The notes under the pieces: model-generated
The model's input: the letters and a program-made list of their open reading frames with translations, nothing else
What the model was told of the DNA's origin: nothing
Databases searched by the model: none
Shown: positions 4,633 to 24,773 of the stretch, piece after piece
Numbering within the stretch: position 1 is the first letter of the stretch
Layout: every line of letters starts with the position of its first letter
Program-made: the position numbers and the translations under genes
Source: a virus
IMG/VR virus record: IMGVR_UViG_3300024255_001080
Coordinates: 1-24,773 of that record
DNA: 24,773 nt
Direction: 5' to 3' (one strand)

Positions 4633-5087
4633 TGGGTTGGTATAGCGAAGTATCAAGAGACATTAGCAAGATACCGAGTGCTGTACAGTTCTTCGAAGAC
4701 GAGCTAGTTAACGCTCGTGTAGAAGTAAAACTTAAAGGTAATGTTGAACGTGCCGCGGCAGAAATGCCCGGTATCGTTGAACATCGATTTAATCAACTTC
4801 AAGAAATTGAAGCGATCTTGCACTACTTAAATATTGAGTTGCGTAGATTACGTAGTTCATACTTTAAAAAATATCTCGAAAACTACCAGCGAGCTCTGTC
4901 TAGTCGTGACGTTGAAAAATACGTTGACGGCGAGGCAGATGTCGTTGACTACGAAAAAATTATTAATGAATTTGCGCTAATGCGCAACAAATGGCTAGGC
5001 TTACTCAAAGGCTTAGATCAAAAACAATGGCAAATTACTAATGTTGTAAAACTTAGAGTAGCTGGGATGGAAGATGCTAGCCTATGA
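4632..5087 (+). CDS. Helical protein, candidate UvsY-like recombination mediator
   Basis: 151 residues, almost entirely helical and rich in charged residues. Distinctive segments are ELRRLRSSYFKKYLENYQR (about 72-90), RALSSRDVEKYVDGEADVVD, and a C-terminal WQITNVVKLRVAGMED. Start and stop are coupled by TAATG at 4630-4634 with the preceding gene, and it overlaps the next gene by 4 nt (ATGA). UvsY of T4 (137 residues) is a small helical protein that loads UvsX on gp32-coated ssDNA, and this protein has the right size, fold type and position two genes after uvsX. I do not see a clear UvsY sequence signature, so this is positional inference; it may be an unrelated conserved phage protein. Confidence 0.45.
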   Translation: MGWYSEVSRDISKIPSAVQFFEDELVNARVEVKLKGNVERAAAEMPGIVEHRFNQLQEIEAILHYLNIELRRLRSSYFKKYLENYQRALSSRDVEKYVDGEADVVDYEKIINEFALMRNKWLGLLKGLDQKQWQITNVVKLRVAGMEDASL

Positions 5088-6759: not shown

Positions 6760-6768
6760 GAAAAAACA

Positions 6769-7479
6769 ATGAAAATTAAGTCAGCAAAAAAACTAGGTGC
6801 AAAGTTTCATTATAAGTGGAGCACACATCAACCTGTAACTAACACAATGTTAGAAGTATTAGAGCCTGAATTAGTTGTTGAAATAGGCACTGGTAGATAC
6901 TCGTCTCCAGGATTAATAACATCAAATGCATTGAAAACAATACATATTGATAACGAGCCAGGCTGGGTTGATCTAGTTAAAAAAGAAAATGCTGAAATAA
7001 TAACTGACAAAAATGAATTTAGAATACATGATATTATTCCTTTAGGAATTGCAAGTTTAAAAGTATTGCCGTCAGAATTAAATCCAATGCAAAAAGAATC
7101 TATTGATAATTATCATAACGAGTTGGCTGCTGAAATTAAAGCAATGAATTATAAGTCTACTATGATATTCACAGACGGATTTGCTTCATGCAGAAAATCA
7201 TCTGTAGACATACTAACAAGTGGTGTTGATTCAATGATCTTTCACGATGCAGAAAAGCCAGCAGCATACGGATATGATAACCTTAATAAAGACTTGTATA
7301 TCACACACGACGAATACTTATTAAAAACTGCAATGTCGTACACTGGCTTTTTTGTACGCAAGGGTATTATTACGTTTGAAGATTTAAAAGTAATTATGGA
7401 CAAGCATGTTAATGTGTATGTTGAGAGTTTAGGTATTTCTAAAGACGGAATTGAATTAATCCAAATGCCAGTGCAGTAA
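6769..7479 (+). CDS. SAM-methyltransferase-like protein
   Basis: 236 residues. VVEIGTGRYSSPGL (36-49) matches motif I of class I methyltransferases, followed by the strand KTIHIDNEPGW, which ends in an acidic residue as in motif II. A later strand TMIFTDGFASCRKSS and VDSMIFHDAE resemble the motif IV/V region of the Methyltransf_24-like group, in which an Asp or His binds metal. The ribosome-binding site is AGGA just upstream (6758-6761), 9 nt after the previous stop. The target is unknown; as a neighbour of glycosyltransferases it could methylate a sugar. The methyltransferase fold is fairly clear; enzymatic activity is not proven by the sequence. Confidence 0.6.
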   Translation: MKIKSAKKLGAKFHYKWSTHQPVTNTMLEVLEPELVVEIGTGRYSSPGLITSNALKTIHIDNEPGWVDLVKKENAEIITDKNEFRIHDIIPLGIASLKVLPSELNPMQKESIDNYHNELAAEIKAMNYKSTMIFTDGFASCRKSSVDILTSGVDSMIFHDAEKPAAYGYDNLNKDLYITHDEYLLKTAMSYTGFFVRKGIITFEDLKVIMDKHVNVYVESLGISKDGIELIQMPVQ

Positions 7480-7490
7480 TAAACTGCATA

Positions 7491-7498
7491 TATAAATA
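7491..7498 (+). promoter_or_regulatory. T4-type late promoter (TATAAATA)
   Basis: An exact match to the T4 late consensus, ending 5 nt before the ATG at 7504. The usual late start site, 6 nt after the octamer, coincides with the A of that ATG. No Shine-Dalgarno sequence precedes the gene. It would drive the main glycan operon (7504-12410) late in infection. Confidence 0.68.
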
Positions 7499-7503
7499 TC
7501 TAC

Positions 7504-8274
7504 ATGAGCAAAGTAGTATTGGTTACAGGCGGGTTTGATCCACTGCATAGTGGACACATTGCCTATTTTAAAGAAGCAAAAAACCTCGGCGACAAACTTA
7601 TTGTTGGCGTAAATAGTGATGATTGGCTTACACGTAAGAAAGGCAGACCTTTTATGCCCTTTAAAGAACGTTGTGCAATTATTAAAGAATTGTCTGTTGT
7701 AGATAAAGTTATCGGATTTGATGATAACGACGACAGCGCATGTCAAGCAATTTTCCATACTATGTCAACTAACACTGGTACAATTATATTTGCTAACGGT
7801 GGCGATAGAACAAACACAACTACACCTGAATATGCTACATACGGCGATCATCCACAGGTTGAATTTGCGTTCGGAATTGGCGGCAAGAACAAAGCCAACA
7901 GCAGTAGTTGGATACTCGACGAGTGGAAAACACAAAAGACTGAACGTGATTGGGGCTACTGGCGTGTGTTAGATCACAAGCCAGAAAAAGGTTACAAAGT
8001 AAAAGAACTAGTGATATACCCAGGCAAAAGTCTAAGCGATCAAAAACATTTCAAACGCTCAGAGCAATGGATAGTACTTGAAGGTGAAGTTGATATGATA
8101 TCTGAATGGCAATCAAATGTTAACCGAGTCCTAATAACTCCAGACCGATCACCTTATGAAATCGGTATTGAAGTTTGGCACAAGCCAAGCAATCCTGGAA
8201 AAGAAAATGCACACATTCTTGAGATACAATGGGGCAGTGAATGCGTTGAAGAAGATATAGAAAGAAGAGATTAA
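7504..8274 (+). CDS. Nucleotidyltransferase / sugar-isomerase-type cupin fusion
   Basis: 256 residues. Residues 1-~140 are a cytidylyltransferase-family domain: GGFDPLHSGH (9-18) contains the HxGH nucleotide-binding motif, followed by LIVGVNSDDWL and the basic RKKGRPFMPFKER, as in RfaE2/HldE and TagD enzymes that make ADP- or CDP-activated sugars or polyols. Residues ~150-256 are a cupin like the mannose-6-phosphate isomerase type II domain of GDP-mannose pyrophosphorylases: WGYWRVLD (150-157), YKVKELVIYPGKSLS, and HFKRSEQWIVLEGEVD (182-197). Only one of the usual histidines is kept in that last motif. The combination suggests a bifunctional sugar-nucleotide enzyme. The gene begins right after a late-type promoter without a Shine-Dalgarno sequence, and ends in TAATG with the next. 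Confidence 0.75.
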   Translation: MSKVVLVTGGFDPLHSGHIAYFKEAKNLGDKLIVGVNSDDWLTRKKGRPFMPFKERCAIIKELSVVDKVIGFDDNDDSACQAIFHTMSTNTGTIIFANGGDRTNTTTPEYATYGDHPQVEFAFGIGGKNKANSSSWILDEWKTQKTERDWGYWRVLDHKPEKGYKVKELVIYPGKSLSDQKHFKRSEQWIVLEGEVDMISEWQSNVNRVLITPDRSPYEIGIEVWHKPSNPGKENAHILEIQWGSECVEEDIERRD

Positions 8275-8948
8275 TGAAAGTATATGTAGGTTACGACACA
8301 AGAGAAGACATGGCATACCAAGTTTGTAAACACAGCATTACGACTAAACAGCCAGAGGCACAGATACGTCCTCTAAAGCAACAAGAGCTACGAGATGCAG
8401 GCTGGTATACTCGTCCCAAGGACAAGCTTGCAAGCACAGAGTTTACATTTACCCGTTTTCTTATTCCTGAACTAATGAACTTTAAGGGATGGGCGGTGTT
8501 TATGGATTGTGATATGATCCTTACTACAGACATTAAAGAACTGTTTGATCAAGCAGATGACAAGTATGCTGTTATGTGCGTACAGCACGATTATACACCT
8601 AAAGAAGGTACTAAAATGGATGGACAGAAACAAACTATCTATCCACGCAAGAACTGGTCAAGTGTGATGTTATTCAACTGCGGGCATCCTAGCAATGCTA
8701 GACTTACACAGGATATGGTAAACGATCCTGAAATTAATGGCGCATACTTACATCGCTTTAGCTGGCTCAAAGACGAAGAAATAGGCGAACTAGATCATAC
8801 ATGGAACTATCTAGTAGGTGTATACGATGATATTGAAACACCAAAACTAATACACTACACAGAAGGCGGACCGTGGTTTGAAAACTACAGAGACTGCGAA
8901 TTTAACAAATTATGGAAACACGAACTACAGGATATGATGAATGGGTAA
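8274..8948 (+). CDS. GT-A glycosyltransferase (GT8-like, DxD)
   Basis: 224 residues. The N-terminus VYVGYDTREDMAYQVCKHSI and the segment STEFTFTRFLIPEL leading to AVFMDCDMI are typical of a bacterial GT8-like family with a GT-A fold. D78-C79-D80 is the DxD motif that binds divalent metal and the nucleotide-sugar. The C-terminal IHYTEGGPWFENY resembles the acceptor-side HxxGxxKPW-type motif of this group. Acceptor and donor cannot be read. It starts in TAATG with the previous gene and overlaps the next by 8 nt. Confident as a glycosyltransferase, less so for the exact family. Confidence 0.78.
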   Translation: MKVYVGYDTREDMAYQVCKHSITTKQPEAQIRPLKQQELRDAGWYTRPKDKLASTEFTFTRFLIPELMNFKGWAVFMDCDMILTTDIKELFDQADDKYAVMCVQHDYTPKEGTKMDGQKQTIYPRKNWSSVMLFNCGHPSNARLTQDMVNDPEINGAYLHRFSWLKDEEIGELDHTWNYLVGVYDDIETPKLIHYTEGGPWFENYRDCEFNKLWKHELQDMMNG

Positions 8949-9807
8949 AACAGCACCAATAGAAATAGCAGCAATAGACAGTGTCGGCGGCAATAACTAC
9001 CATAAAAAAGGACACTCGTATGATCCTTACTTGGCAAGTATACTTAGAGGGATTGCACAACATCCTAGTACACTATCTACAATTGAATCTAATTGGGAAG
9101 AACAAGAAGATACTTCGACTATGCTTCTCATAAGAGGACTTGGTGGCGGCAGTCAGAAAGCTATCAAACGTTGTTGGGAAGAAGGGCGCGAATTTTATGC
9201 AGTTGACACTGGTTATTTTGGAAACGGGAAACATAAAACTTGGCATCGAATTACCCGCAATGCTCTGCAAAATATGGAACAGATGATTGATCGTGATTTT
9301 GAAAGACTTGCTGTTCAATTACAAGTTGAAACATGGGACGAAATCTATAAGCCATTTACACCTGGTTCTAAAATATTAGTTTGTCCTCCTAGTGACAAAG
9401 TAATGAACATGTTTGGACAACCAAAAGCAGAAGAGTGGACTAACAATTTAGTAGAACAGTTAGCACAAATAACCGATAGACCTATTGAAATTAGAATGAA
9501 GCCTATTAGAAGCCAGCGAGTTACTGGAAGCACTATACAAGAAGCATTACAAGATGATGTACATTGTTTAGTTACATACAACAGTATTGCAGCTACTGAA
9601 GCTCTGATGGAAGGCAAGCCTGCATTAACACTAGGCCCAAATGCAGCACAACTAATTTGTGAAACAGACCTTAATAATATTGATAATCCACGCATACCAA
9701 CTGAAGAAGAAATGTATAGATTTTTAACTCATCTATCATATTCACAATTCACACAGCCAGAAATGGAAGACGGCACTGCTTGGGATATTTTAAGGAAGGA
9801 TGTGTAA
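8941..9807 (+). CDS. GT-B-like capsule/glycan transferase, paralog 1
   Basis: 288 residues. The C-terminal half resembles GT-B-fold glycan transferases of the capsule-synthesis type: a Rossmann strand KILVCPPSD (~141-149), an NLVEQLAQITDRPIEIRMKP helix-strand unit where relatives have an HP motif, and VTYNSIAATEALMEGKPALTLG, the donor-binding loop pattern (S..ATEA...G.P) common to KpsS/KpsC and related enzymes. Here the HP position reads KP, so the donor-site His may be lost. It shares this layout, and the ending DGTAWDIL, with the genes at 9807 and 11559 (DGTAWRHL in the former), showing gene duplication. It overlaps both flanking genes by a few bases. Confidence 0.6.
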   Translation: MGKTAPIEIAAIDSVGGNNYHKKGHSYDPYLASILRGIAQHPSTLSTIESNWEEQEDTSTMLLIRGLGGGSQKAIKRCWEEGREFYAVDTGYFGNGKHKTWHRITRNALQNMEQMIDRDFERLAVQLQVETWDEIYKPFTPGSKILVCPPSDKVMNMFGQPKAEEWTNNLVEQLAQITDRPIEIRMKPIRSQRVTGSTIQEALQDDVHCLVTYNSIAATEALMEGKPALTLGPNAAQLICETDLNNIDNPRIPTEEEMYRFLTHLSYSQFTQPEMEDGTAWDILRKDV

Positions 9808-10739
9808 TGACTATTAGTGTAGCAAGTTATCTAATGGGCATACCGCCTGGAAATAAGAATCCAGAAAAACCTAAAATTATTGTAAACTTTATTGAAGGTG
9901 TTTGGACTGCTGGAGACAAAGGTGAAATTGTATGTGACTATGATCCAATTGATGCTGATGTTGCAGTAGTACAAGGCTTTGTTCATCCTGGCAGTAAGCA
10001 AGGACAACACCTAACATTACGCAAAGCAGTATTTGACAAGCAACAACGCGACAACAAGCGCAGTATTATTGTGGATAGTAACTTATTTTTATATGCGGAT
10101 AAAGGCAACTCGCAACAGTTTTTAAGATTTAGTTATGACGGAGTGTTTCCTAGTACAGGAGATTATTGTAATCAAAACCCCGATCCTACAAGATGGGACT
10201 TAATTAGTAAACGTTTAGGAATTAAACTTAAACCTTATCGTAAAACAGGAGACAATATTTTAATATGTTGTCAGCGTGATGGCGGGTGGAGTATGGGAGG
10301 CGAAGCCTTAATGCCATGGCTAGTTAGAACAGTACAACAAATAAGAAAACATAGCGATAGAAGAATTTTAGTTAGATTTCATCCTGGCGATAAAAATATA
10401 CTTAATCACAAAAGAATGTTAGCAAGATATAGAATGCCAAATGTAATAATAAGTCACGCAGTAAACATATTAGAAGACTTTCAACATGCTCATTGTGTTA
10501 TAAATCTTAACAGTAGTCCTACAGTAGCAGCAGCAATCGAAGGACTTCCTACTATAGTATTAGATTCCCAAAGAAGTCAAGCAGCAGAAGTATCTCATCA
10601 TAGTTTAAGTGATATTGAAAAATTAACAGAACGTGATAGAGAACATTGGATACATAAAATGGCACAAATGCATTGGTCATTAAGTGAATTAAAAGATGGT
10701 ACAGCATGGAGGCACCTGAGACAATGGGCAATCAAATAA
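9807..10739 (+). CDS. GT-B-like capsule/glycan transferase, paralog 2
   Basis: 310 residues. It has the same organisation as its two neighbours: ILICCQRDGGW strand-loop, helix, then RILVRFHPGDKN with an intact HP motif, then NVIISHAVNILEDFQHAHCVINLNSS- and AIEGLPTIVLD, which forms the C-terminal nucleotide-binding motif, and a tail ending DGTAWRHL. KpsS/KpsC-type beta-Kdo transferases and CDP-glycerol transferases share these short motifs, so the donor is not fixed by sequence alone. ATG 9807 is preferred to an upstream in-frame TTG at 9780 because AAGGAAGG (9792-9799) is a good ribosome-binding site and the start forms TAATG with the previous stop. The N-terminal ~110 residues are also conserved in general layout among the paralogs but poorly in sequence. 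Confidence 0.62.
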   Translation: MTISVASYLMGIPPGNKNPEKPKIIVNFIEGVWTAGDKGEIVCDYDPIDADVAVVQGFVHPGSKQGQHLTLRKAVFDKQQRDNKRSIIVDSNLFLYADKGNSQQFLRFSYDGVFPSTGDYCNQNPDPTRWDLISKRLGIKLKPYRKTGDNILICCQRDGGWSMGGEALMPWLVRTVQQIRKHSDRRILVRFHPGDKNILNHKRMLARYRMPNVIISHAVNILEDFQHAHCVINLNSSPTVAAAIEGLPTIVLDSQRSQAAEVSHHSLSDIEKLTERDREHWIHKMAQMHWSLSELKDGTAWRHLRQWAIK

Positions 10740-11569
10740 CAGTAGTAACAACATTTCATCCAGCAGGATTAGTAAGATACGGACAACGGTTTTTAGATAG
10801 CTTTGCTGCAAGAGTGGACAAACGTATCAAGTTATTAGTATATGCTGAAGATTGTAAACCTGACAATCCAGACTCTACAAGAATTGAAATATTAGATGCA
10901 AAGGCAGTATTACCAAAACTAAATGCATTTAAAGAACGCTGGCGCAATGTTCCTAAAGCCAATGGTGACGTTAGCAATGAGCCACAGCGTCACACACGCA
11001 AGGATTGGAACAAAGAATTTAAATGGGATGCTGTACGCTTCGCTAACAAGACTTATGCTGTGTATGACGCTGTAACACGCTCTAAGGACTGGTGTGTGTG
11101 GATGGATGCAGATACATTTGTACACAGCGATTGGAGTTATGAAGACTTTGTAGAGCTACTTCCTAGCAATGCTTACATTACATATGTTGGTAGAGGCAAA
11201 GGATCACAGACATGGCCCGAGTGCGGCTTTTATGGTATGAACTTAAATCATCCTGTATGCCATGAATTCTTAAAAGAATTTGAAAGATTTTACGAAGATG
11301 CAGACAATGGTATCTTCACTCTCGATGAATGGCACGACAGTTATGTGTTTGGGCATTTGTTAAATAAGTACAAAGACTTTCCGTCACATGATTATAGTGC
11401 AGATATGTATCTTAAAGAAGCAAAGTCAGGCGGTGGCGGACATCCATTAATTAATGGACCATTAGGTAAATGGATTGATCATATGAAAGGCGGTCGCAAA
11501 GACAAAGGCAAAAGTCTTAGATCAGATATTATGGTCAACAGAAAAGAAGCATATTGGAATGAGGTTTAA
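10724..11569 (+). CDS. GT-A-like glycosyltransferase (DxD)
   Basis: 281 residues. N-terminal strand ITVVTTFHPAGLVRYGQRFL, a segment LLVYAEDC, and WCVWMDADTFVHSDW with D128-A129-D130 as the DxD metal/nucleotide-sugar motif of GT-A enzymes. Further on, ITYVGRGKGSQTWPECGFYGMN and WHDSYVFGHLL look like the acceptor and catalytic regions of GT8- or GT32-like transferases. The chosen start ATG 10724 has GGAGG at 10708-10712 upstream; another in-frame ATG at 10706 lies before it and is less likely. It overlaps the previous gene by 16 nt and the next by 11 nt, so it is firmly inside the glycan operon. Acceptor unknown. Confidence 0.68.
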   Translation: MGNQITVVTTFHPAGLVRYGQRFLDSFAARVDKRIKLLVYAEDCKPDNPDSTRIEILDAKAVLPKLNAFKERWRNVPKANGDVSNEPQRHTRKDWNKEFKWDAVRFANKTYAVYDAVTRSKDWCVWMDADTFVHSDWSYEDFVELLPSNAYITYVGRGKGSQTWPECGFYGMNLNHPVCHEFLKEFERFYEDADNGIFTLDEWHDSYVFGHLLNKYKDFPSHDYSADMYLKEAKSGGGGHPLINGPLGKWIDHMKGGRKDKGKSLRSDIMVNRKEAYWNEV

Positions 11570-12410
11570 CTTACATGAAAAATTTGGTGCTCTCAACAGC
11601 AAGCCTGTTTTTGATGCCTTTCGCGCTGGTGCTAATGCTCTTGGGCATGATGTTGTTGTTAATGGTAATGACGGCATTGATGTTATTTGGAGTGTACTTT
11701 GGCACGGTCGCATGGCTGGAAACCGTGCTATTTGGGAAAGAAACATTTCGCAATCAAAACCGACCTTGGTTTTAGAAGTAGGCAGTATTAAACGTGGAAC
11801 AACTTGGAAGGTAGGTCTAAATGGAATTAACAGAGATGCTTACTTTGGTGAGCAAAACAATGATAGGACTAGGGCTGATCACCTGGGACTGGTTTGTAAA
11901 ACTTGGAGATCCGACGGCAATTATGTTTTAATATGCGGTCAACACAACAAGAGCTTACAGTGGCAAGGCATGCCTAGTATGAGCAATTGGTTCTTAAATA
12001 CTTATGACAAAATACGTAAATACACAGACCGCCCTATAATATTTCGACCACATCCTCGATGTAGATTAGAACATATAGAACGTGGTCTCAAACACGTATA
12101 CAGACAGGAGCCTAAGCACATTGCCAGCACTTACGACGATTTTGATATGGACTTTAGCGATGTGTGGGCTACTATCAGTTACAGCTCAAATCCGGGGACA
12201 CACTCTTGTATCAATGGTGTTCCAGCTTTTGTTAGCACCCATAGTCTTGCTTATAGTGTTGGTAACGACATAGACTTCCTTCACGACATAGAAAATCCGT
12301 TGATGCCTGATAGATCACAATGGCTCAACGATTATGCACACACCGAATGGACCATTGAGGAAATATCTCAAGGTGTGCCAATAAAAAGCTTGACAAGTAT
12401 CTTAGTTTAA
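11559..12410 (+). CDS. GT-B-like capsule/glycan transferase, paralog 3
   Basis: 283 residues, third member of the local family. YVLICGQHNKSLQW strand-loop, IIFRPHPRCR with a clear HP motif, and ATISYSSNPGTHSCINGVPAFVST as the C-terminal donor-binding loop, in the same order as in the genes at 8941 and 9807. It also has a longer, better defined N-terminal Rossmann domain (VFDAFRAGANALGHDVVVNG and DVIWSVLWHGRM), which looks like a full GT-B N-terminal half. The KpsS/KpsC capsule Kdo-transferase superfamily is the best comparison, unproven. The start ATG 11559 lacks an obvious ribosome-binding site and overlaps the previous gene by 11 nt. The end of the gene contains the promoter for the next gene. 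Confidence 0.62.
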   Translation: MRFNLHEKFGALNSKPVFDAFRAGANALGHDVVVNGNDGIDVIWSVLWHGRMAGNRAIWERNISQSKPTLVLEVGSIKRGTTWKVGLNGINRDAYFGEQNNDRTRADHLGLVCKTWRSDGNYVLICGQHNKSLQWQGMPSMSNWFLNTYDKIRKYTDRPIIFRPHPRCRLEHIERGLKHVYRQEPKHIASTYDDFDMDFSDVWATISYSSNPGTHSCINGVPAFVSTHSLAYSVGNDIDFLHDIENPLMPDRSQWLNDYAHTEWTIEEISQGVPIKSLTSILV

Positions 12411-12418
12411 GTTATACT
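12390..12418 (+). promoter_or_regulatory. Sigma70-type promoter, leaderless spacing
   Basis: TTGACA at 12390-12395, 17-nt spacer, TATACT at 12413-12418. Six bases separate the -10 element from the ATG at 12425, so the expected start site (7 nt after the -10) is the A of the ATG. It lies inside the 3' end of the preceding gene. Confidence 0.65.
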
Positions 12419-12424
12419 TTATGT

Positions 12425-13597
12425 ATGATATTAAATTTAGAAGATTGCTTAGAACACCTTGCAGGCTTACGTAGCTCACCAATAGAGTTTTCTATTGAAA
12501 AAACTGACTATACTATCATAACTAGTATTGCTAGACAGTGTTTCAAAGGTATGGCGTTGACTGACAGGCAGTCTGCACTTATGCATGAAAAACTACAAGC
12601 CTACAGAGATCAATTTACTAATTTAGATTGGGACTTTGATTATGCAGTTAATCAATTGCGTCAGCCAATTCGACATATTGATCGTAGCAAATATATTAAA
12701 ATTGTAGACAACGACATTGAAGTAAGATTTCCTTTTAGAAAAACTGAAATAATGTTAGTCCAAGAAGTTGCAGCTCATGCAGGTGACGGATACCATCATC
12801 AAAAAGGTTCTCACAAACATTCTTTTGCATTTACCGAAAGTAATATTTTAAAATTAATAGATAATTTTATTAACAAAGAGTTTGAAATTGACGAAGAACT
12901 TATTAGTATATACAAACAAATTAAATCTATACATGAAACACCGCAAGATTATCTAAGCGGAGTTTCTGACTTAGAATTAATAAACATTAACAATAAATTA
13001 TTACCTATAATAAATGACGAACTTGGCGAACTTTCGAATAAAACATTATTTCAATTTATTGACAGAAGATTTAGATACGGTTTTAATTGTGTTGATGAAC
13101 TAAAAGAAACAAAACTTGCAGATAAGATTGCATTACGCAAAGACGTATATTATCAAAGCAAGCCAAGTCAAGAATCAACTTCTAGTATTTTAAATGCACT
13201 GTGGGATCTAAATAGATTTCCAATATTAGTAATATTAGAAGAAGATAGAGCAGAACAGCAGTTATATGATTTTGCAAATCATTATAGAGATATTTTAAAT
13301 CCAGAACAACAAAGTGTACTGTTTCGTTTAGAAGATAAAAATGCTGGGTTTAACCAATTGATTAAGGACAGAAAATTAAACAATTGGGTTGACAAAACTA
13401 CAAAAGTAGTGTATATTAATAAGAGTAAGTTACCTAAACTACTTGTAAACAACGAATGGAAGCCTAGTGCAGCATTTTGTTTTTCAAGTTCTATGGACCG
13501 TTTTGTGGACAGCTTTGTTTCATTTAACTGTGACTTAATTGTATACAGAGAAGAACACATGAGTCCAATGAGGAGACATTCTAGATATTATGGCTAG
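12425..13597 (+). CDS. Unknown 390-residue protein ahead of uvsW
   Basis: I do not recognise a named family. Visible features: a helical N-terminus with GMALTDRQSALMHEKLQAYR (42-61), a short helical segment of the kind seen in several phage and helicase-associated proteins; a basic stretch RQPIRHIDRSKYIK; a His-rich patch GDGYHHQKGSHKHSF (about 121-135); and alternating strands and helices in the C-terminal third (PILVILEEDRAEQQL, KVVYINKSKLPKLL, AAFCFSSSMDR, CDLIVYREE). This C-terminal pattern is like a P-loop or helicase half without a visible Walker motif. It overlaps uvsW by 8 nt, so a role with that helicase is a reasonable guess. It has its own promoter and no ribosome-binding site. Confidence 0.7.
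   Translation: MILNLEDCLEHLAGLRSSPIEFSIEKTDYTIITSIARQCFKGMALTDRQSALMHEKLQAYRDQFTNLDWDFDYAVNQLRQPIRHIDRSKYIKIVDNDIEVRFPFRKTEIMLVQEVAAHAGDGYHHQKGSHKHSFAFTESNILKLIDNFINKEFEIDEELISIYKQIKSIHETPQDYLSGVSDLELININNKLLPIINDELGELSNKTLFQFIDRRFRYGFNCVDELKETKLADKIALRKDVYYQSKPSQESTSSILNALWDLNRFPILVILEEDRAEQQLYDFANHYRDILNPEQQSVLFRLEDKNAGFNQLIKDRKLNNWVDKTTKVVYINKSKLPKLLVNNEWKPSAAFCFSSSMDRFVDSFVSFNCDLIVYREEHMSPMRRHSRYYG
13389..13417 (+). promoter_or_regulatory. Possible internal sigma70-type promoter upstream of uvsW
   Basis: TTGACA at 13389-13394, 17-nt spacer, TATATT at 13412-13417, inside the preceding coding region. It would start transcripts near 13424, about 165 nt before uvsW. The spacing is ideal, but because it lies in coding sequence it may be chance. 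Confidence 0.35.
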
Positions 13598-15934: not shown

Positions 15935-16543
15935 ATGTTTAAAAACATCGATAAGAAAATGATGCTTAAACTTGCAATTCTGCAGGTAGTAGTAGTCGTT
16001 GTCTCCAACGCCCTAGTTTCTATACCTGTAGAAATTTTTGGTGTTAAACTAACATGGGCAGCATTTACGTTCCCATTAGTTATTCTAGCAACTGACTTAA
16101 CAGTACGTATGTTAGGTAAGAACATTGCTCGAGCAACTATTGCAGCAGCGTATCCATTGGCCATCATTGGCTCAATTGCAGTTGTAATGTTAGAAGGCGC
16201 ACCTCAGAGTGTTGCACTACGTATTGGCTTTGCAAGTGCTACAGCATATGCAGTTGGTACAATGCTAGACGTGTATGTATTCCAATACTTGCGTGAAAAG
16301 TATCGTGCATGGTGGTTAGCGCCAGCTTTGTCTACAGTTATTGCAAATGTAATTGATAGTTACACATTCTTCTTTGTTGCGTTTAACAACTCAGCAGACG
16401 AGTATATGGCAGCAAACTGGATGGAGATTGCAGGATCACAAACTGTACTTAAAATTGCAGTAGGCTTAATTATATTCTTACCAGCTTATGGCGTACTACT
16501 ACGCTACTTAAATGGTAGATTACAAGAGAATGCCGATGGGTAA
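15935..16543 (+). CDS. yhhQ: Queuosine-precursor transporter (YhhQ/VUT family)
   Basis: 202 residues (E. coli YhhQ is 221). An inner-membrane protein with about six hydrophobic segments; YhhQ imports preQ0/preQ1, the 7-deazaguanine precursors used for tRNA queuosine. Family signatures seen are the AFTFPLVILATDLTVRMLG segment (about 43-61), the amphipathic REKYRAWWLAPALSTVIANVIDSYTFFF region with the conserved Asp-Ser before the next membrane span, and the C-terminal YGVLLRYL. It starts 3 nt after the cupin stop. In a phage it may feed tRNA modification or 7-deazaguanine DNA modification, but no dpd or que enzyme is in this window. Confidence 0.8.
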   Translation: MFKNIDKKMMLKLAILQVVVVVVSNALVSIPVEIFGVKLTWAAFTFPLVILATDLTVRMLGKNIARATIAAAYPLAIIGSIAVVMLEGAPQSVALRIGFASATAYAVGTMLDVYVFQYLREKYRAWWLAPALSTVIANVIDSYTFFFVAFNNSADEYMAANWMEIAGSQTVLKIAVGLIIFLPAYGVLLRYLNGRLQENADG

Positions 16544-16793: not shown

Positions 16794-17119
16794 AATATGA
16801 AAATTGGGACATAGGCGGCAACATTGTCAAAGAAGATGATCGTTATATTGTAACAGATAATACTATATTAAAAAATTTAGTTGTAAGTAGTACAATGTTA
16901 TCAGCTAATAAGAGTACAACAGGACACAGACACGCTGGACAAGAAGAAGTTTATATTTTTGTTAGTGGTAGTGGACAAATGGAACTTGATCATAAAATAT
17001 TTGATGTTACAGCAGGTGATACTGTACTAATTGAAGACAATGTATTCCACAAAGTGCATAACACAACAGACGTTGGATTAAAATTTATTTGTGTATTTGA
17101 TGGCGGAAGGAATCACTAA
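16790..17119 (+). CDS. Single-domain cupin protein 2
   Basis: 109 residues. STTGHRHAGQEEVYIFVSGSG is cupin motif 1 with the HxH-(x)n-E metal-binding set (HRH and the following Glu), and DVTAGDTVLIEDNVFHKVHN is motif 2 with its His. The arrangement is typical of Cupin_2 proteins related to mannose-6-phosphate isomerases. Start ATG 16790 has AAGGAA at 16779-16784; a much longer in-frame extension upstream has no support. It ends in TAATG with kdsA, so coupling with Kdo synthesis is likely. The small cupin at 15572 has the same domain but is a different gene. Confidence 0.75.
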   Translation: MKYENWDIGGNIVKEDDRYIVTDNTILKNLVVSSTMLSANKSTTGHRHAGQEEVYIFVSGSGQMELDHKIFDVTAGDTVLIEDNVFHKVHNTTDVGLKFICVFDGGRNH

Positions 17120-17892
17120 TGAGAATTATAGCAGGACCATGTCAACACGAAGGACTAGCACAGTCAGCAGAGATTGCTAAAGAGTGCAAACGTGTATGTG
17201 ACAAATATGGCATTGATTATTACTTTAAAGCAAGTTATGACAAAGCTAATCGTACAAGTATAAACGGAGAACGTGGCGTTGGAATAAATGCAACACTAAA
17301 TGACTTCTTAGCATTGAAAGATACATTAGGTGTAAAAACGCTAACCGATATACATGATCATGTGCAACTTGCACGTATTGAACGAGAATTTAAATATGCA
17401 GTTGATGTCTATCAGATTCCTGCATTTTTGTGTAGACAGACTGACTTAATCAAAGCAGCATGTGCTACAGATAAAATAGTAAATATAAAAAAGGGACAGT
17501 TTCTTGCTCCTTGGGATGTTGAAGGTATTATTAGTAAAACTAAAAACGCCAAGGAAGTATGGATAACTGAAAGGGGCACTAGCTTTGGTTATAATAATCT
17601 CGTTGTTGATTTTACTGGCATTCAGTATATGCTTGAGTCCTATGATGTACCTGTGGTCTTGGACGCCACCCACAGTGTTCAAAAGCCCGGCGGCAATGGC
17701 ACTAGTAGTGGTGGCAATCGTAACTATGTACCAGGCTTATCACGTGCTGCATCTGCTCTTGGAGTTACTAACTTCTTCTTAGAAGTACACAAAGATCCAG
17801 ACAATGCACCTAGTGATGGCCCTAATATGCTTAGATTAGAAAATTTTGAGGAGATTGTACGTGACATCATCGGCTATTCTTATACCGGCTAG
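17119..17892 (+). CDS. kdsA: 3-deoxy-8-phosphooctulonate synthase (Kdo-8-P synthase)
   Basis: 257 residues (E. coli KdsA is 284). It condenses phosphoenolpyruvate with arabinose-5-phosphate to make Kdo-8-phosphate, an early step of Kdo synthesis in the cytoplasm. Matches to the family are AGPC (5-8), FKASYDKANRTS (36-47), QIPAFLCRQTDL (99-110), NIKKGQFLAPW, RGTSFGYNNLVVD, DATHSVQKPGG (182-192) and FFLEVHKDPDNAPSDGP (219-235). Cys8, His185, Glu222 and Asp233 are the ligands of the metal-dependent class (Aquifex type), in which Cys replaces the Asn of E. coli. It is translationally coupled by TAATG to the cupin and overlaps kdsB by 32 nt. No kdsD or kdsC is seen, so those steps must come from the host. 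Confidence 0.88.
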   Translation: MRIIAGPCQHEGLAQSAEIAKECKRVCDKYGIDYYFKASYDKANRTSINGERGVGINATLNDFLALKDTLGVKTLTDIHDHVQLARIEREFKYAVDVYQIPAFLCRQTDLIKAACATDKIVNIKKGQFLAPWDVEGIISKTKNAKEVWITERGTSFGYNNLVVDFTGIQYMLESYDVPVVLDATHSVQKPGGNGTSSGGNRNYVPGLSRAASALGVTNFFLEVHKDPDNAPSDGPNMLRLENFEEIVRDIIGYSYTG

Positions 17893-18544
17893 ATACGGTA
17901 GTACACGCTTTCCAGGCAAGCCTCTTGTGGCGCTTAATAACATTCCTATGATACGCAGAGTGTTTGAGAGTTGTCATAAGACAGGTTATGATGTATACGT
18001 GCTTACAGACGATGTACGTATTGCAGAAAAATTTGAGCCGCATCAAGTTATTATAGATGTAGCAGATTATGATAACGGCACAGAACGATGTGCTGGCGCT
18101 GTAGCAATGCATACACTCGACGACTACGATCAGTTTGTTAACGTGCAAGGAGACATGCCTGATGTAACTCAAGAAATGATTCATAGATGTATCGCTAGCC
18201 TTACTGAATATGAAGTAAGTACAGTATACACTGAGATGACAGAAGAACAGCAAAACGATCCCAACTCAGTTAAGATGGTACGTGCAAAAGATCAAGCATT
18301 GTGGTTTGGCAGAGGCATGACAGGTTATGGCGATTGGCACTTGGGTGTATACGCTTACCGCAAACATGCACTACAGGCTTATCCTAATTTACAAATAGAA
18401 CAAGAAGAACGCATAGAGAAACTTGAACAACTACGCTGGTTAAAAAACGGTTGGCAAATTGGTTGTTTGAGTGTATACTTTAATGGAGTAGAGATTAACA
18501 CACCCGAGGATGTAGAAACATGGCAGCAGAAAAACTTGCAATAA
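17861..18544 (+). CDS. kdsB: CMP-Kdo synthetase (3-deoxy-manno-octulosonate cytidylyltransferase)
   Basis: 227 residues (E. coli KdsB is 248). It activates Kdo with CTP to give CMP-Kdo, the donor for Kdo transferases. The N-terminus ILIPARYGSTRFPGKPL is the family signature with the nucleotide-binding Arg/Ser/Lys set. DDVRIA, DNGTERCAGAVAM (the TG-type ERC loop), NVQGDMP (Mg2+-binding Asp in the NVQGDEP motif, with E changed to M), and the C-terminal EQLRWLKNGWQI and GVEINTPEDVE are all typical. I choose GTG 17861, which has GAGGAGA at 17848-17854 upstream and gives a start directly before the signature; the alternative is TTG 17846. It lies in an operon with kdsA. The Met in place of Glu in the QGD motif is unusual. 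Confidence 0.85.
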   Translation: MTSSAILIPARYGSTRFPGKPLVALNNIPMIRRVFESCHKTGYDVYVLTDDVRIAEKFEPHQVIIDVADYDNGTERCAGAVAMHTLDDYDQFVNVQGDMPDVTQEMIHRCIASLTEYEVSTVYTEMTEEQQNDPNSVKMVRAKDQALWFGRGMTGYGDWHLGVYAYRKHALQAYPNLQIEQEERIEKLEQLRWLKNGWQIGCLSVYFNGVEINTPEDVETWQQKNLQ

Positions 18545-18987: not shown

Positions 18988-19660
18988 GCCATACAAATGT
19001 GAATACTGTGGAAGCAGTTATGTAAGAGAGTCAACTCTTATGGCGCATGTGTGTGAAAAGAAACGCAGAGCTTTGCAAAAAGACGAACGCAGAGTGCGCT
19101 TAGGGTTTTATGCATTTAATCAGTTTTATAAACTAAGTGCAGGATTAAAGCGTGATAAAACATATGAAGAGTTTTGCAAAAGTAGTTACTACAATGCGTT
19201 TGTAAAGTTTGGTAGTTTTGTATCCAATGTAAAGCCGTTGTATCCTGAGAAGTATATTAACTATGTTGTAACCAGCGGAGTTAAACTTGATCACTGGTGC
19301 AGAGAAGAAATGTATGAAACATATGCAATTGAACTTATTAAAAAAGAAGGTGTCGAAACTGCACTAGAACGTAGTATTAATACTATGGCAGAGTGGGCAG
19401 ATGAAAACAACAGTGTATGGAACCACTACTTCTTGTATGCATCTCCTAACAGAGCAGTATGGCATATTAAGGATGGAAAGATTAGTCCATGGCTGATGCT
19501 TAATTGCAAAAGCGGAAAAGAAATGCTAGGCAATTTTAACGACGAGCAACTGGGTATGATATATAATATTGTAGATCCCAAGCACTGGGGTGTTAGATTT
19601 AAAAGACAAGTAAAAGATGTACAATTAGTAAAAGACGTCGTAAAGGAGAGTAAACTATGA
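18965..19660 (+). CDS. C2HC zinc-finger phage protein
   Basis: 231 residues. A zinc finger opens the protein: C12, C15, H28, C30 in the segment KCEYCGSSYVRESTLMAHVC, followed by a strongly basic EKKRRALQKDERRVR. The rest is alpha-rich and includes NAFVKFGSFVSNVKPLYPEKY and a region with many aromatics around AVWHIKDGKISPWLML. A DNA- or RNA-binding role is likely from the finger. ATG 18965 places the finger near the N-terminus; a TTG at 18917 upstream in the same frame lacks support. It overlaps the following peptide deformylase gene by 4 nt (ATGA). I do not recognise a named family. Confidence 0.68.
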   Translation: MKLQLSSKPYKCEYCGSSYVRESTLMAHVCEKKRRALQKDERRVRLGFYAFNQFYKLSAGLKRDKTYEEFCKSSYYNAFVKFGSFVSNVKPLYPEKYINYVVTSGVKLDHWCREEMYETYAIELIKKEGVETALERSINTMAEWADENNSVWNHYFLYASPNRAVWHIKDGKISPWLMLNCKSGKEMLGNFNDEQLGMIYNIVDPKHWGVRFKRQVKDVQLVKDVVKESKL

Positions 19661-20154
19661 AATTATTAAAATATCCAGATGACTTTTTAAATAAAAAAGT
19701 CAAAGCAGTTGATTTAGAAAATCCTGGCTTTGATCCTGTAGAACTTAAAAAAGAAATGGTAGATCTTATGCTTGCTAGTAATGGCATAGGACTTAGTGCT
19801 AATCAAGTTGGACTAGACGCACAAGTATTTGTTATGGGTGACAGTGCAGAAAATAGTACAATATGTATTAATCCTACAGTGCTACAATACACAGAAGAAA
19901 CTGTAGACGACATCGAAGGTTGTTTAAGTTTTCCAAATGTGTTTGTTAAGATCAAACGCCCTAAAGAAATACTTGCAGAATGGTATAATGAAAAGTTAGA
20001 AAAACAAACTGTAAAGATTGAAGGCTATAGTGCCAAGTGTTATCTACATGAACTAGATCATTTGCTAGGTATTACATTTAAAGATCGTGCAAGCAAACTA
20101 AAATGGAATATGGCTGAAAAGAAAGCACGTAAAATGGGGAAACAACTTGCCTGA
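19657..20154 (+). CDS. def: Peptide deformylase
   Basis: 165 residues. It removes the formyl group from N-terminal fMet of nascent proteins in the cytoplasm using a bound divalent metal (often Fe2+). All three signatures are present: GIGLSANQ (43-50), EGCLS (87-91, Cys metal ligand) and HELDH (131-135, two His ligands and the catalytic Glu). The residue before HELDH is Leu where bacterial enzymes usually have Gln. Length fits the ~170-residue bacterial enzymes, with a basic C-terminal end. Peptide deformylases are known in marine T4-like cyanophages, where they may help translation of phage or photosystem proteins. It overlaps the next gene by 8 nt. Confidence 0.9.
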   Translation: MKLLKYPDDFLNKKVKAVDLENPGFDPVELKKEMVDLMLASNGIGLSANQVGLDAQVFVMGDSAENSTICINPTVLQYTEETVDDIEGCLSFPNVFVKIKRPKEILAEWYNEKLEKQTVKIEGYSAKCYLHELDHLLGITFKDRASKLKWNMAEKKARKMGKQLA

Positions 20155-21086: not shown

Positions 21087-21872
21087 ATGCAATTGTTACC
21101 AAGATATTTAGTCGACAATACAACCACTGTCGTTGCAGATGTGGCAGGATTCATTACGGAGTACAGACCAGTGTATAACAAACAACTTCAATTATATAAA
21201 GGCATAGATAATGTCTTAGATTTTAGATTATTAAATGCAGATCAAAAACCAGTATTATTAACATCTTACACTCCCAAGTTTGTTGCGTTTGATGAAAACA
21301 ACCAGATGATATTAGAAAAGGATGCTACAGTAGAAGACGACGGATCAACAACTACAAGAGGCAAATTTAAAGTTACTGTAACAGAAAATGAATTATTGAA
21401 TGTTAAACAGCAATACTTGACGTACAACGTATACTTGCAAGAATCAGATGGTGACAAAGTATTAACTTATAGTCACAGTAACTTTGATAATGATGCTACA
21501 ATTTTTGTTAACGGCAGAACTTTCCCAGGTCCATTAAATTCTTATTCAGTAACATCATTTGAACAAGAAGCTGTTGGTGTTGACAAATGGTATAGTAGCA
21601 CAATTGATGCACAGCCTGGCATCAACGGTAACGAAGCATTACACACCGCAGCAGCGTATACAACCTCGTACATTGGCGATCTTGTTGTACAGGCTACATT
21701 AGACAATCAAGTTACAGAAAGCACACAGTGGGCTGATGTTGCTACTCTAACGTTTGCAGGAACAGAGACTACTCCGCAACCTGTAAATTTTAATGGCGTG
21801 TTTAGTCACATACGTTTCAAAGCAGACGCAAATCCAGCAGATAAAATCACAAAAATATTAGTAAGAAATTAG
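21087..21872 (+). CDS. Probable virion structural protein
   Basis: 261 residues, beta-rich and low in charged catalytic motifs. Segments such as QLQLYKGIDNVLDFRLLNADQKPVLLTSYTPKFVAFD (each part shorter than 20 residues: YKGIDNVLDFRLLNADQKP then VLLTSYTPKFVAFDENN) resemble the N-terminal beta-sandwich of phage baseplate/fibre proteins with a DUF2479/BppU-like repeat. The C-terminal part (QATLDNQVTESTQWADVATL) reads as a second beta domain. It has a late-type promoter right at the ATG, fitting a structural protein, and no ribosome-binding site. The gene has no recognisable enzyme motifs. Exact place in the virion unknown; the structural call rests on sequence feel and promoter class. Confidence 0.55.
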   Translation: MQLLPRYLVDNTTTVVADVAGFITEYRPVYNKQLQLYKGIDNVLDFRLLNADQKPVLLTSYTPKFVAFDENNQMILEKDATVEDDGSTTTRGKFKVTVTENELLNVKQQYLTYNVYLQESDGDKVLTYSHSNFDNDATIFVNGRTFPGPLNSYSVTSFEQEAVGVDKWYSSTIDAQPGINGNEALHTAAAYTTSYIGDLVVQATLDNQVTESTQWADVATLTFAGTETTPQPVNFNGVFSHIRFKADANPADKITKILVRN

Positions 21873-21873
21873 G

Positions 21874-21902
21874 TTGACAAAGTAATATAATTACGTTATA
21901 AT
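21874..21902 (+). promoter_or_regulatory. Consensus sigma70-type promoter, leaderless spacing
   Basis: TTGACA at 21874-21879, 17-nt spacer, TATAAT at 21897-21902: perfect consensus in both elements and in spacing. The ATG follows 6 nt later at 21909, so the expected start site is the A of the ATG. No Shine-Dalgarno sequence lies between. Confidence 0.8.
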
Positions 21903-21908
21903 AAGCGT

Positions 21909-23645
21909 ATGAAAAATAAATATAAACTCGTAGCTGCACTCTGTGCAGCTTTTTTAATGACTCCAGTGTATGCACAAGAACTAGTTATATATGTATATGC
22001 TGATAGAACACCTTCATCTGTTGCTAGCACTACATATTCGTATGAGTCAGTTGAAGTAGAAGACCTTGAAGAGGTGTCTAGTTTAGACATTTTGACAAGC
22101 GGACCAAAAGGACAAATGAGCTCCTTGTACATAAGAGGCGCTGATAGTGATCAAAGCCTTGTAACCCTAAATGGTATTTCCATAAAAGACCAAAGCAGCC
22201 CAACAGGTACAGATGATCTTGGACAACACAACTTTACAGGAATAAGTCTTGTAGAAGTATACAAAGGTCCAATGAGTAGTTTGTACGGTGCAAACGCCGC
22301 CGGAGGTGTAGTTAATCTAATATCAGATGTTACTGGAAGATCATATGCTGGAGTAACAATAGGTAGCAATAATTTGTTAGCTGGCGAAACGCAACTGTCG
22401 GGTAGAGCAAAGGATATAGATTATTCTTTTACAATAGGAAAAGAAATCAGTGACGGTATAAGTGTATATCCAGATGGCCGAGAAGATGATCCGTACGATA
22501 ATGAAAATGTAAACTTAAATTTATTATACTCTAATGATTACGAAAGTGTAAGATTAAATTATATCAACGAAACTAATTTTACAAACTTAGATTCAATGAG
22601 TGATACATTAAACTATACAGGTAAATGGAATTGGAAAAATACACAACTTGATTATAACAATGAAAAATCAAGATTAGTATTAAACAATTCAAATCATAAA
22701 AGAGTGTACACCAAAGATGATTTAGTAGAAGGAGACTACAATAGTACAGTAAACACTTTATATGGTTCGCACTTAATAAATTTAAATAATACCGATGTAA
22801 TGTTTGGTGGTGAACTCGAAGAAATAGATGCTAAGTTCTTTACTAATATACGAGGCATGTATCCATATACTAGCAACGTAAACAAAGAACGTACATCCAA
22901 AGGTGTGTTTGTTAATACCAACACAGTGATGTTAAACAGTACAGTGGTGTCATCAGGTATAAGGTATGATACAGTTGACGGCTTTGGTGATCGTACTACA
23001 GGTAGGATTGGCATTTTTAAAAACGGAGCAAGGGCTAGTGTATCAACAGGATATAGAATTCCTACGCTCTACGAAATGTACGGTCAGGACAACTACGGCT
23101 TTACTGGCAATCCTAATTTGCAGGAAGAAAGTACAACTAGTTACGAAGTAGGCTATAAAACAAATTATAGTGATACAGCAGTGTTTGTTACAAAAGAAAA
23201 TGATGCAATTATATATAACGGCACATACGTCAATGACGATGATACTAGTTACACAAAAGGTATTGAAAATAAAATATTTTTTGAACTAGACGGATTCTTT
23301 ATTGCAAACAGTGTTAGTTACATAGAAGCAAAGCAAAGTAATGGTAACGAAAAACTAAGACGTCCTAAACTTACTAATAATTTAAAAGTATCAAAGTTAG
23401 TTAATGACATTGTATACTCTGTTGATGCAGATTATTATGGCAAGCACAAAGATATTAGCAGTACAACATTTCAAACTATAGATGTAGGTAGTATTATAAC
23501 ATACAACACAGAAGTAAATTATAATAAAAATAATTTAGAATTGTTTGCTGGGATATATAATATTAGTAATAAAAAATATGAAAGACCAAACGGGTACAGT
23601 CAATTAGGACGAAACTTTAAGTTGGGCTTTAGGAAATACTTCTAA
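21909..23645 (+). CDS. TonB-dependent outer-membrane receptor (BtuB-like size)
   Basis: 578 residues. A classic signal peptide MKNKYKLVAALCAAFLMTP with VYA before the cleavage site (about residue 22) confirms the start at 21909. Just after it, ELVIYVYADR resembles the TonB box position and form seen in BtuB. The plug domain follows with SSLYIRGADSDQSLVTLNG and VEVYKGPMSSLYGANAAGG plus VVNLISDV (about 76-140), standard TonB-receptor plug motifs. From ~150 to the end are alternating amphipathic strands, and the protein ends RKYF, with the C-terminal Phe that outer-membrane beta-barrels use for BAM assembly. Size is close to BtuB (about 590-610). It should sit in the host outer membrane and import a ligand (cobalamin, siderophore or other); the ligand cannot be read. 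It has its own consensus promoter. Confidence 0.88.
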   Translation: MKNKYKLVAALCAAFLMTPVYAQELVIYVYADRTPSSVASTTYSYESVEVEDLEEVSSLDILTSGPKGQMSSLYIRGADSDQSLVTLNGISIKDQSSPTGTDDLGQHNFTGISLVEVYKGPMSSLYGANAAGGVVNLISDVTGRSYAGVTIGSNNLLAGETQLSGRAKDIDYSFTIGKEISDGISVYPDGREDDPYDNENVNLNLLYSNDYESVRLNYINETNFTNLDSMSDTLNYTGKWNWKNTQLDYNNEKSRLVLNNSNHKRVYTKDDLVEGDYNSTVNTLYGSHLINLNNTDVMFGGELEEIDAKFFTNIRGMYPYTSNVNKERTSKGVFVNTNTVMLNSTVVSSGIRYDTVDGFGDRTTGRIGIFKNGARASVSTGYRIPTLYEMYGQDNYGFTGNPNLQEESTTSYEVGYKTNYSDTAVFVTKENDAIIYNGTYVNDDDTSYTKGIENKIFFELDGFFIANSVSYIEAKQSNGNEKLRRPKLTNNLKVSKLVNDIVYSVDADYYGKHKDISSTTFQTIDVGSIITYNTEVNYNKNNLELFAGIYNISNKKYERPNGYSQLGRNFKLGFRKYF

Positions 23646-23770
23646 TGAAAAATCTAGTAAAACAACCTTTCTTTTGGGCAGGGTTACTTATGATATCTCC
23701 AATTCTATACTATCTTATATACAAGGTAAGTTTAGAACTTTGGTGCATAGCATACGGATTAATCTACTAA
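23645..23770 (+). CDS. Small membrane protein downstream of the TonB receptor
   Basis: 41 residues. The start ATG at 23645 overlaps the receptor stop (TAATG), with AGGA at 23631-23634 as a ribosome-binding site. FFWAGLLMISPILYYLIY (residues 9-26) is a clear membrane-spanning helix, and LWCIAYGLIY makes a second, shorter hydrophobic end. Positive charges (MKNLVK) lie at the N-terminus. Its coupling to the receptor gene suggests a linked function, perhaps an inner-membrane partner; no family is recognised. The ORF is short, so chance cannot be ruled out, but coupling, ribosome-binding site and composition favour a real gene. Confidence 0.6.
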   Translation: MKNLVKQPFFWAGLLMISPILYYLIYKVSLELWCIAYGLIY

Positions 23771-23776
23771 AAATAC

Positions 23777-23804
23777 TTGACAAGATACAATACTCTGTTA
23801 TAAT
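23777..23804 (+). promoter_or_regulatory. Sigma70-type promoter, leaderless spacing, for the primase
   Basis: TTGACA at 23777-23782, 16-nt spacer, TATAAT at 23799-23804, with TG at 23796-23797 (extended -10). The ATG at 23811 lies 6 nt beyond, so the predicted start site is the A of the ATG. No Shine-Dalgarno sequence precedes it. Confidence 0.78.
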
Positions 23805-23810
23805 AATACT

Positions 23811-24773
23811 ATGAGTATTGTATCTGACACAATCACGGCACACTTGCCTGGTAAGCGTAAAACTACACCTAGTGGTTGGACCAGCTTCAATGCGCCCTGC
23901 TGTCAGCACAATGGCAACAGTGCGGATACTAGAGGACGCGGCGGACTTATCAGCGAAGGAGACACTGTAAGTTACCACTGTTTTAACTGCGGATACAAAG
24001 CAAGTTGGCAACCAGGCAGACCGGTATCATATAAGCTACGTAAGCTCTTACAGTGGCTCAATTGCAGTGATGATGATATAACACGGCTGACATTCGACGT
24101 CATGCGTTTAAACGAAGGCGTAGAGGTTGCAGAGCGTAAGATAGAAATACCTACGTTTGAAACTGTACCTTTGCCTACTGATGCTGTAAAGATTGCAGAC
24201 ATTGTAGAGTTCAACAAGTTTAGTATAGCAGTTGTTGAGTACATGGCTGCTCGTAACTTGAACTTGGATGATACTGATTACTATTGGAGCCCAAGCCTAG
24301 CATATCGTGACAGACTGATTATTCCGTTCTACTACGAGAAACGTATTGTTGGGTGGACTGCTAGAACTATTACAGCAGACAAACAACCTAAGTATCTTAT
24401 GGAAGTACAACCTGGATTTGTTTATGGACTAGACGAACAAGGTTATAATAAAGTGTTTGCTATCCTTTGTGAAGGGCAAGTAGATGCTATTCACGTAGAT
24501 GGCTGTGCATTAGGCGGCAGTGAGATTAATGATGCACAAGCAATGCTAATCAACAAACTTAACAAAGATATTATTGTAGTGCCTGATAGAGATCACGCAG
24601 GAAAGAAACTAGCAGAGCAAGCCATCGAACTAGGCTGGGGAGTTAGCATGCCCGAATGGAGTCAAGAGATCAATGATATCGGCGATGCTGTGAATAAGTA
24701 CGGAAGACTATATACATTATACAGCATAGCTAATGCAGCTGAAACTAGTCCACTTAAAATTAGATTGAGAGCA
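23811..24773 (+). CDS. 61: DNA primase (gp61-type), 3' partial
   Basis: 321 residues are present and the frame is still open at the window end; T4 gp61 is 342 residues, so little may be missing. It makes RNA primers for lagging-strand synthesis together with the gp41 helicase. The N-terminal zinc ribbon has C30/C31 and H33 (NAPCCQHNG) with C57 and C60 (YHCFNCGYKA), the CHC2 family layout. A middle region with DRLIIPFYYEKRIVGWTAR follows, then the TOPRIM domain: LCEGQVDAI with E221, and VVPDRDHAG with D259 and D261. Expression is from the promoter immediately upstream, apparently without a leader. The call is firm as a phage DnaG-type primase; gp61 is the nearest named relative given the T4-like context. 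Confidence 0.85.
   Translation, partial: MSIVSDTITAHLPGKRKTTPSGWTSFNAPCCQHNGNSADTRGRGGLISEGDTVSYHCFNCGYKASWQPGRPVSYKLRKLLQWLNCSDDDITRLTFDVMRLNEGVEVAERKIEIPTFETVPLPTDAVKIADIVEFNKFSIAVVEYMAARNLNLDDTDYYWSPSLAYRDRLIIPFYYEKRIVGWTARTITADKQPKYLMEVQPGFVYGLDEQGYNKVFAILCEGQVDAIHVDGCALGGSEINDAQAMLINKLNKDIIVVPDRDHAGKKLAEQAIELGWGVSMPEWSQEINDIGDAVNKYGRLYTLYSIANAAETSPLKIRLRA

Follow-up and report, generated by a model that had tools for sequence, protein, structure and literature searches.

The receptor locus in a jumbo-phage fragment

The window, by which we mean the whole stretch of 24,773 bases that was analysed (IMG/VR record IMGVR_UViG_3300024255_001080), is a fragment of a jumbo-phage genome, and it is grouped with the jumbo phages because of its core genes. 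Its UvsX protein is 66% identical to that of Vibrio phage 2.275.O and about 65% identical to those of Atu_ph07, Phosso and CBB, and its primase and DnaE-like pieces match the same jumbo phages and, in addition, PA5oct; judged by these sequences, the window phage is related to GAP32, PA5oct, Atu_ph07 and Vibrio phage 2.275.O. Elsewhere the window contains a run of glycosyltransferase-like genes (5084-12410, one of them confirmed as GT25) and, as recognised by eye, kdsA- and kdsB-like genes (17119-18544), which together suggest that the phage may remodel lipopolysaccharide or decorate itself. It also contains a peptide deformylase gene (19657-20154; 4.2e-40), detected in only a few of the relatives whose contigs cover the place of this gene.

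Near the right end of the window lies an intact open reading frame for a TonB-dependent receptor (TBDR), whose product ends in Tyr-Phe (Table 1). The first-pass annotation of this DNA had described a full-length receptor with signal peptide, TonB-box-like segment, plug and beta-barrel with terminal Phe, placed between a structural-type gene and the primase, and this description was borne out on both counts. The 578-residue frame is uninterrupted and carries both Pfam domains, with scores of 53.2 bits for PF07715 (cut-off 23.9) and 83.7 for PF00593 (cut-off 27); a BppU_N or virion-structural-like gene stands upstream and the primase downstream. The signal peptide, TonB box and C-terminal aromatic residue by which a TBDR is recognised were all found by sequence inspection and conservation. 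An AlphaFold model, built from 22 phage sequences, consists of the plug and 22 barrel strands (pLDDT 81, pTM 0.84).

Table 1. Features of the receptor cassette and of its flanks, in window coordinates.
Feature	Position	Strand	Basis
BppU_N / virion-structural-like gene, left flank of insertion site	21087-21872	+	Profile matches
Promoter TTGACA-N17-TATAAT, perfect sigma70-type, before TBDR gene	21874-21902	+	Sequence
TBDR gene, BtuB-like, 578 aa	21909-23645	+	Pfam, NCBIfam, PDB sequence and fold match
Signal peptide, residues 1-22, Sec-type, cleavage near A22	21909-21974	+	Predicted by eye
TonB-box-like segment ELVIYVYADR, E24-R33	21978-22007	+	Sequence and conservation in A1/A2
Plug domain, residues 53-134	22065-22310	+	PF07715 4.7e-14
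22-strand beta-barrel, residues 146-578	22344-23642	+	PF00593 3.3e-23; AlphaFold model
Small membrane-peptide ORF, 41 aa, ...YKVSLELWCIAYGLIY	23645-23770	+	ORF, conservation, pN below pS
Promoter TTGACA-N16-TATAAT, 6 nt before primase start; right end of cassette	23777-23804	+	Sequence
Phage primase gene, right flank, runs off contig end	23811-24773	+	PHROG 47 2.7e-34; jumbo-phage matches

Promoters and predicted leaderless transcripts

The receptor gene had also been said to stand under a perfect host-type promoter, and an exact TTGACA-N17-TATAAT is indeed present. Because the -10 box of this promoter ends 6 nt before the start codon of the receptor gene, the receptor transcript is predicted to be probably leaderless. 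The jumbo relatives have an identical promoter before the receptor gene. Similar ones lie 6-7 nt before the receptor start in phages that are unrelated to the window (L020, L023-L025 and L042).

The same spacing recurs beyond the receptor gene. In the window itself, promoter-like sites lie exactly 6 nt before start codons at 12390-12427, 21874-21911 and 23777-23813, and across 306 genes of the window and of loci L002-L015, L018, L019 and L021 a 6-nt distance from promoter to start was counted at 35 of 58 promoter-like sites, a proportion pointing to a routine use of leaderless transcripts in this jumbo-phage lineage. No Rfam match was obtained in the window, and hence no RF00174 cobalamin riboswitch was detected upstream of the receptor gene.

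A small membrane peptide beside the receptor

Overlooked in the first reading was a 41-codon frame whose start overlaps the stop codon of the receptor gene (TAATG, 23643-23647) and whose predicted product is a small membrane peptide. The peptide is conserved, with LELWCIAYGLIY as its C-terminal end, and pN falls well short of pS in each pair of jumbo copies compared, which indicates that the frame is translated. In the jumbo relatives it adjoins the receptor, and in L030-L035, L043 and L044 it lies on the receptor's opposite side.

Peptides of this family (37-41 residues, ...LELWCIAYG...) are encoded by at least 53 viral contigs (the window and L112-L164), where their neighbours are TBDR genes or genes for other apparently exported proteins. 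A dedicated pairing of peptide and receptor was considered and rejected, since phages that lack this receptor encode the peptide too, in many cases next to genes of the latter kind.

Distribution of the receptor and its gain and loss at a fixed site

A survey of related phage contigs for the same locus had been proposed as a check on the first reading. In a close search it returned 14 IMG/VR contigs that carry the window receptor at 59-99% identity, in most cases at the corresponding site. The wider receptor family comprised 47 loci by alignment search and then 74 viral loci in a broader search, distributed over several unrelated phage lineages that are mostly marine. Seventeen contigs are syntenic with the window, and wherever the contig reaches far enough the receptor is flanked by the BppU-like gene and the primase. 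Most other carriers have nothing in common with the window outside the receptor; we regard them as phages because in L042 a gp23-type major head protein gene is about 0.6 kb away from the receptor, because a head-tail adaptor gene adjoins the receptor in L028, and because five large carrier records also encode terminase. Among INPHARED isolated phages, the receptor search returned only bacterial-looking records and fragments, and among PHROG profiles the phage receptors match only PHROG 5687 (2.4e-20), an unannotated profile of 760 positions to which they align in two stretches.

The receptor is absent from all of the 80 closest primase relatives listed, and in 69 of them the site is empty, the BppU-like gene ending within about 60 nt of the primase; these counts come from a peptide-pattern search of which the best 80 were listed, and they are not prevalences. 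The nearest of the listed relatives (L287, 92%) is itself an empty site, and the primase promoter is kept at empty sites. In other phages the same gap holds a 120-residue secreted protein together with DUF6580 (L373, L375, L378 and L379), a protein of about 250 residues (L292), or small proteins. Because empty sites occur in relatives, gain and loss of the receptor is evident, and with its own promoter and its presence or absence at a fixed site among close relatives, the features by which morons and auxiliary genes are recognised, the receptor cassette is a gain/loss moron. The secreted protein just mentioned (118-120 residues, apparently beta-rich, C-terminal Trp, no Pfam match) replaces the receptor beside DUF6580 in some phages (L373:3142-3504, L378:3136-3498, L385:3148-3504 and relatives), in part at the insertion site of the window.

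An IQ-TREE phylogeny of 50 receptors contains a branch, supported at 96/87, that sets 34 phage sequences apart, and E. coli BtuB is placed, weakly, near this phage clade. The cellular receptors that were found are at most 28% identical to the phage copies, and a search for close cellular relatives among cellular genome contigs gave only 22% matches. Between close phage copies dN/dS is 0.12-0.30, from which the phage receptors are judged to be under purifying selection.

These observations bear on the suspicion that the locus is an assembly chimera or holds a stray, non-functional host gene, a suspicion that is natural enough given that the window is a single metagenome-derived contig and that cellular TBDRs are common. 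Independent contigs from many samples have this gene at one and the same site, the phage copies form a clade of their own with the low dN/dS just given, and other carriers hold capsid and terminase genes. The contig survey has thus already refuted the chimera, and we accord this reading as a whole practically no probability.

DUF6580 and cobalamin riboswitches

In several other phage groups, a gene for a DUF6580 protein (PF20221) overlaps or abuts the receptor gene. No DUF6580 was found on any of the contigs of the window's lineage that were searched, these being fragments, and in the viral loci examined DUF6580 and the 41-residue peptide family were not found together in one locus. DUF6580 is encoded by at least 94 viral contigs, and a recognisable TBDR lies nearby in half of the 80 loci listed (L367-L446), of which one (L446) is on a contig of 408,349 bases and another (L434) is directly preceded by an NAD synthase gene. 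Searches for DUF6580 in INPHARED phages and in plasmids gave no match.

In Bacteroidota, DUF6580 scored above the cut-off in 80 of 198 genomes (about 40%). Sixty DUF6580 neighbourhoods from this phylum (L085-L104 and L247-L286) contain 20 Rfam cobalamin riboswitches in 18 loci, against 0.2 expected from their density across whole genomes of this phylum sample (155 in 338 Mb), and the sole other Rfam RNA in these neighbourhoods is one tRNA. In 14 Bacteroidota loci the riboswitch, the TBDR gene and the DUF6580 gene follow one another in this order on one strand. Further bacterial loci combine DUF6580 and a TBDR with a DUF5074 beta-propeller, which we take to be BtuG-like, and one phage (L429) has DUF6580 together with DUF5074. 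DUF6580 is, in sum, strongly linked to cobalamin riboswitches in Bacteroidota, the one phylum on which this link is based. Its designation as a proven ECF S-component was tried and rejected, the structural model (pLDDT 84) having matched no solved structure.

The ligand of the receptor

The best NCBIfam match of the window receptor is TIGR01779 TonB-B12 (8e-45), with a score of 153.5 bits against an equivalog cut-off of 599.7, so that the threshold for a BtuB equivalog is missed; by sequence the receptor is B12-receptor-like, yet it is not filed as BtuB. Among PDB sequences BtuB (1.7e-21) precedes the next family, Cir (1.2e-11), and when the model was compared with Foldseek, the top 12 PDB entries were all BtuB (best E-value 4.7e-34; TM 0.82 for 2gsk). 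The five calcium-site positions that are aspartates in BtuB read S/E/D/D/G in the window receptor, three of the five being acidic, and this pattern is close to that of a riboswitch-controlled Bacteroidota receptor and of another that lies beside cobalamin synthesis genes. At the plug positions that contact cobalamin in simulations of BtuB (PMC7360065), identity is 0.35 versus 0.34 in the remaining plug, a comparison that does not discriminate for the ligand. Two of the plasmid-borne cellular relatives that were inspected adjoin cobalamin genes and one, from Shinella, adjoins an iron-ABC operon.

It had been suggested in the first-pass annotation that the receptor could import iron or cobalamin, and cobalamin has come out as the better supported of the two. 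If the receptor took up an iron chelate or heme, iron limitation in infection would be relieved, and both the Shinella neighbourhood and the weaker matches of the window receptor to models of CirA, heme and siderophore receptors would be accounted for. However, BtuB comes first by profile, by sequence and by fold, the partner family DUF6580 is linked with cobalamin riboswitches, and no iron genes were noticed around the inspected phage loci, so that we consider iron unlikely, though deserving of some weight. For the window's own lineage, the argument for cobalamin is indirect and is made from homology, from a receptor tree that mixes DUF6580-partnered and peptide-partnered members and calls for at least five partner changes, and from the DUF6580 cassettes at the same genomic site. 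Taken with the fold model, these comparisons make cobalamin the best-supported ligand and probably the true one.

The extracellular loops of TBDRs are usually their variable part. Here, mean pairwise identity in loops versus strands is 0.78 versus 0.62 in close relatives and 0.58 versus 0.38 in the whole family, and only 3 of 432 circular shifts gave a contrast as extreme (positions from the model). Since the loops are more conserved than the strands, one fixed ligand is suggested for the receptor family.

The same contrast lends no support to two earlier proposals, namely that the phage gene replaces a receptor lost by the host, or that it changes the cell surface against competing phages: no part of the barrel is better conserved than the loops, the opposite of what would be expected under phage-receptor conflict. 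It likewise weighs against a device for superinfection exclusion or competition, in which the receptor would occupy limiting TonB, or display a decoy, and so exclude TonB-dependent phages or bacteriocins. Phages and colicins are known to use BtuB-class receptors (e.g. PMC8624392), the gene shares with exclusion morons a strong promoter of its own, and its product has a TonB-box-like segment. A decoy, however, would have no need of a DUF6580 partner, and the link to B12 operons would be left unexplained; we think exclusion quite unlikely.

Another bulky nutrient could also be the substrate, for instance a queuosine precursor, as the phage encodes a putative Vut_1/YhhQ-type transporter of the queuosine-precursor class (15935-16543), whose gene lies about 6 kb upstream of the receptor and has counterparts in many relatives. 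But Vut_1 is not adjacent to the receptor gene, it went undetected in some receptor-bearing relatives (L002 and L007), and no finding here ties BtuB-like receptors to queuine, which makes such a substrate very improbable.

A proposed model for corrinoid uptake during infection

What these phages carry is an intact, conserved receptor with a BtuB-like fold that is gained and lost among them, and the partner that accompanies it in relatives is tied to B12 riboswitches in bacteria. The explanation that we favour, and consider fairly likely, is that of a moron-like cassette in which a BtuB-type receptor, powered by the host, takes cobalamin or a related corrinoid up into infected cells; we infer export by the host, energy from host TonB, corrinoid import and a benefit through host B12 enzymes.

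From its host-type promoter the receptor would be made early or constitutively, and the host Sec and BAM machineries would export it to the outer membrane. There it would be powered by the TonB-ExbBD of the host, as it must be if phages bring no TonB of their own (none was found in 25 phage records), and cobalamin or related corrinoids would enter the infected cell. B12-dependent steps of the host, for example those of methionine synthase or a class II ribonucleotide reductase, would then be supplied with the imported vitamin. In some phages DUF6580 is added as a membrane partner; the window's lineage has the 41-residue membrane peptide instead and would rely on an inner-membrane transporter of the host. 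The phage receptor would also escape control by the B12 riboswitch, because none was detected in the window and the predicted transcript has no leader. A B12-dependent ribonucleotide reductase of the phage itself was considered as a reason for import and rejected: the three reductases found encoded by carrier contigs are NrdA/NrdB pairs which, being class I, would not use B12, and no B12-dependent phage enzyme was found.

In a broader form, to which we give about an even chance, the proposal would state that unrelated phage lineages, jumbo phages included, carry interchangeable, self-promoted and riboswitch-free cassettes for corrinoid uptake, composed of a receptor or a small secreted beta-rich protein together with DUF6580 or the 41-residue peptide. 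Should this be true, metabolic takeover by phages would commonly be directed at B12 acquisition, a target hitherto unrecognised, and DUF6580, a family without assigned function to which the riboswitch linkage gives a testable role, would be an uncharacterised component of B12 uptake. A phage with its own uncontrolled B12 receptor would tie infection to competition for vitamins in the sea. The receptor would be an auxiliary gene of the transporter type, acting at the outer membrane, whose receptors serve phages, colicins and nutrients alike.

Comparison with known systems

With BtuB of E. coli (TIGR01779; PDB 2gsk and 1nqh) the window receptor shares the plug and 22-strand barrel, the closest fold, an end-to-end alignment and a TonB-box-like segment, and an SG-DL-Q motif in the second plug loop is common to BtuB and several phage members. 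Unlike BtuB, the phage receptor is encoded by a phage, is shorter, has no riboswitch leader, keeps the calcium site only in part, is about 21-26% identical and scores far below the equivalog cut-off. The operons of Bacteroidota, in which a riboswitch precedes a BtuB-like TBDR and DUF6580, contain the same adjacent pair of receptor and DUF6580 that is found in other phage lineages; they are, however, cellular and under RF00174, whereas the phage genes are preceded by host-type promoters, and the window has no riboswitch and its lineage no DUF6580.

A phage-encoded TBDR is not without precedent, since the SusC-type TBDR of the marine megaphage Mar_Mega_1 has been proposed as a possible auxiliary uptake gene (PMC9723777). 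The earlier remark that encoding such a receptor is unusual therefore needs qualification: the receptor is phage-borne, as stated, but a phage TBDR was known before and members of the B12-type family are carried by dozens of contigs. Among viral proteins, only BFVD A0A8D9FQQ5 matches the fold strongly, and it is likewise a SusC, from an uncultured marine phage; it has 805 residues and belongs to the SusC (glycan) class, not the BtuB-like one. A SusC-type assignment of the window receptor was rejected, as the two proteins are 12% identical and BtuB-type models rank first. In the literature searched, which left out most subscription papers, no report of a phage BtuB-like receptor or of DUF6580 was found.

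With the auxiliary metabolic genes and morons of phages in general, the cassette has in common its own promoter, its gain and loss at a fixed site and a nutrient-related product. It differs from them, and from anything reported in the literature just described, in what it would combine: an outer-membrane vitamin receptor and an interchangeable membrane partner.
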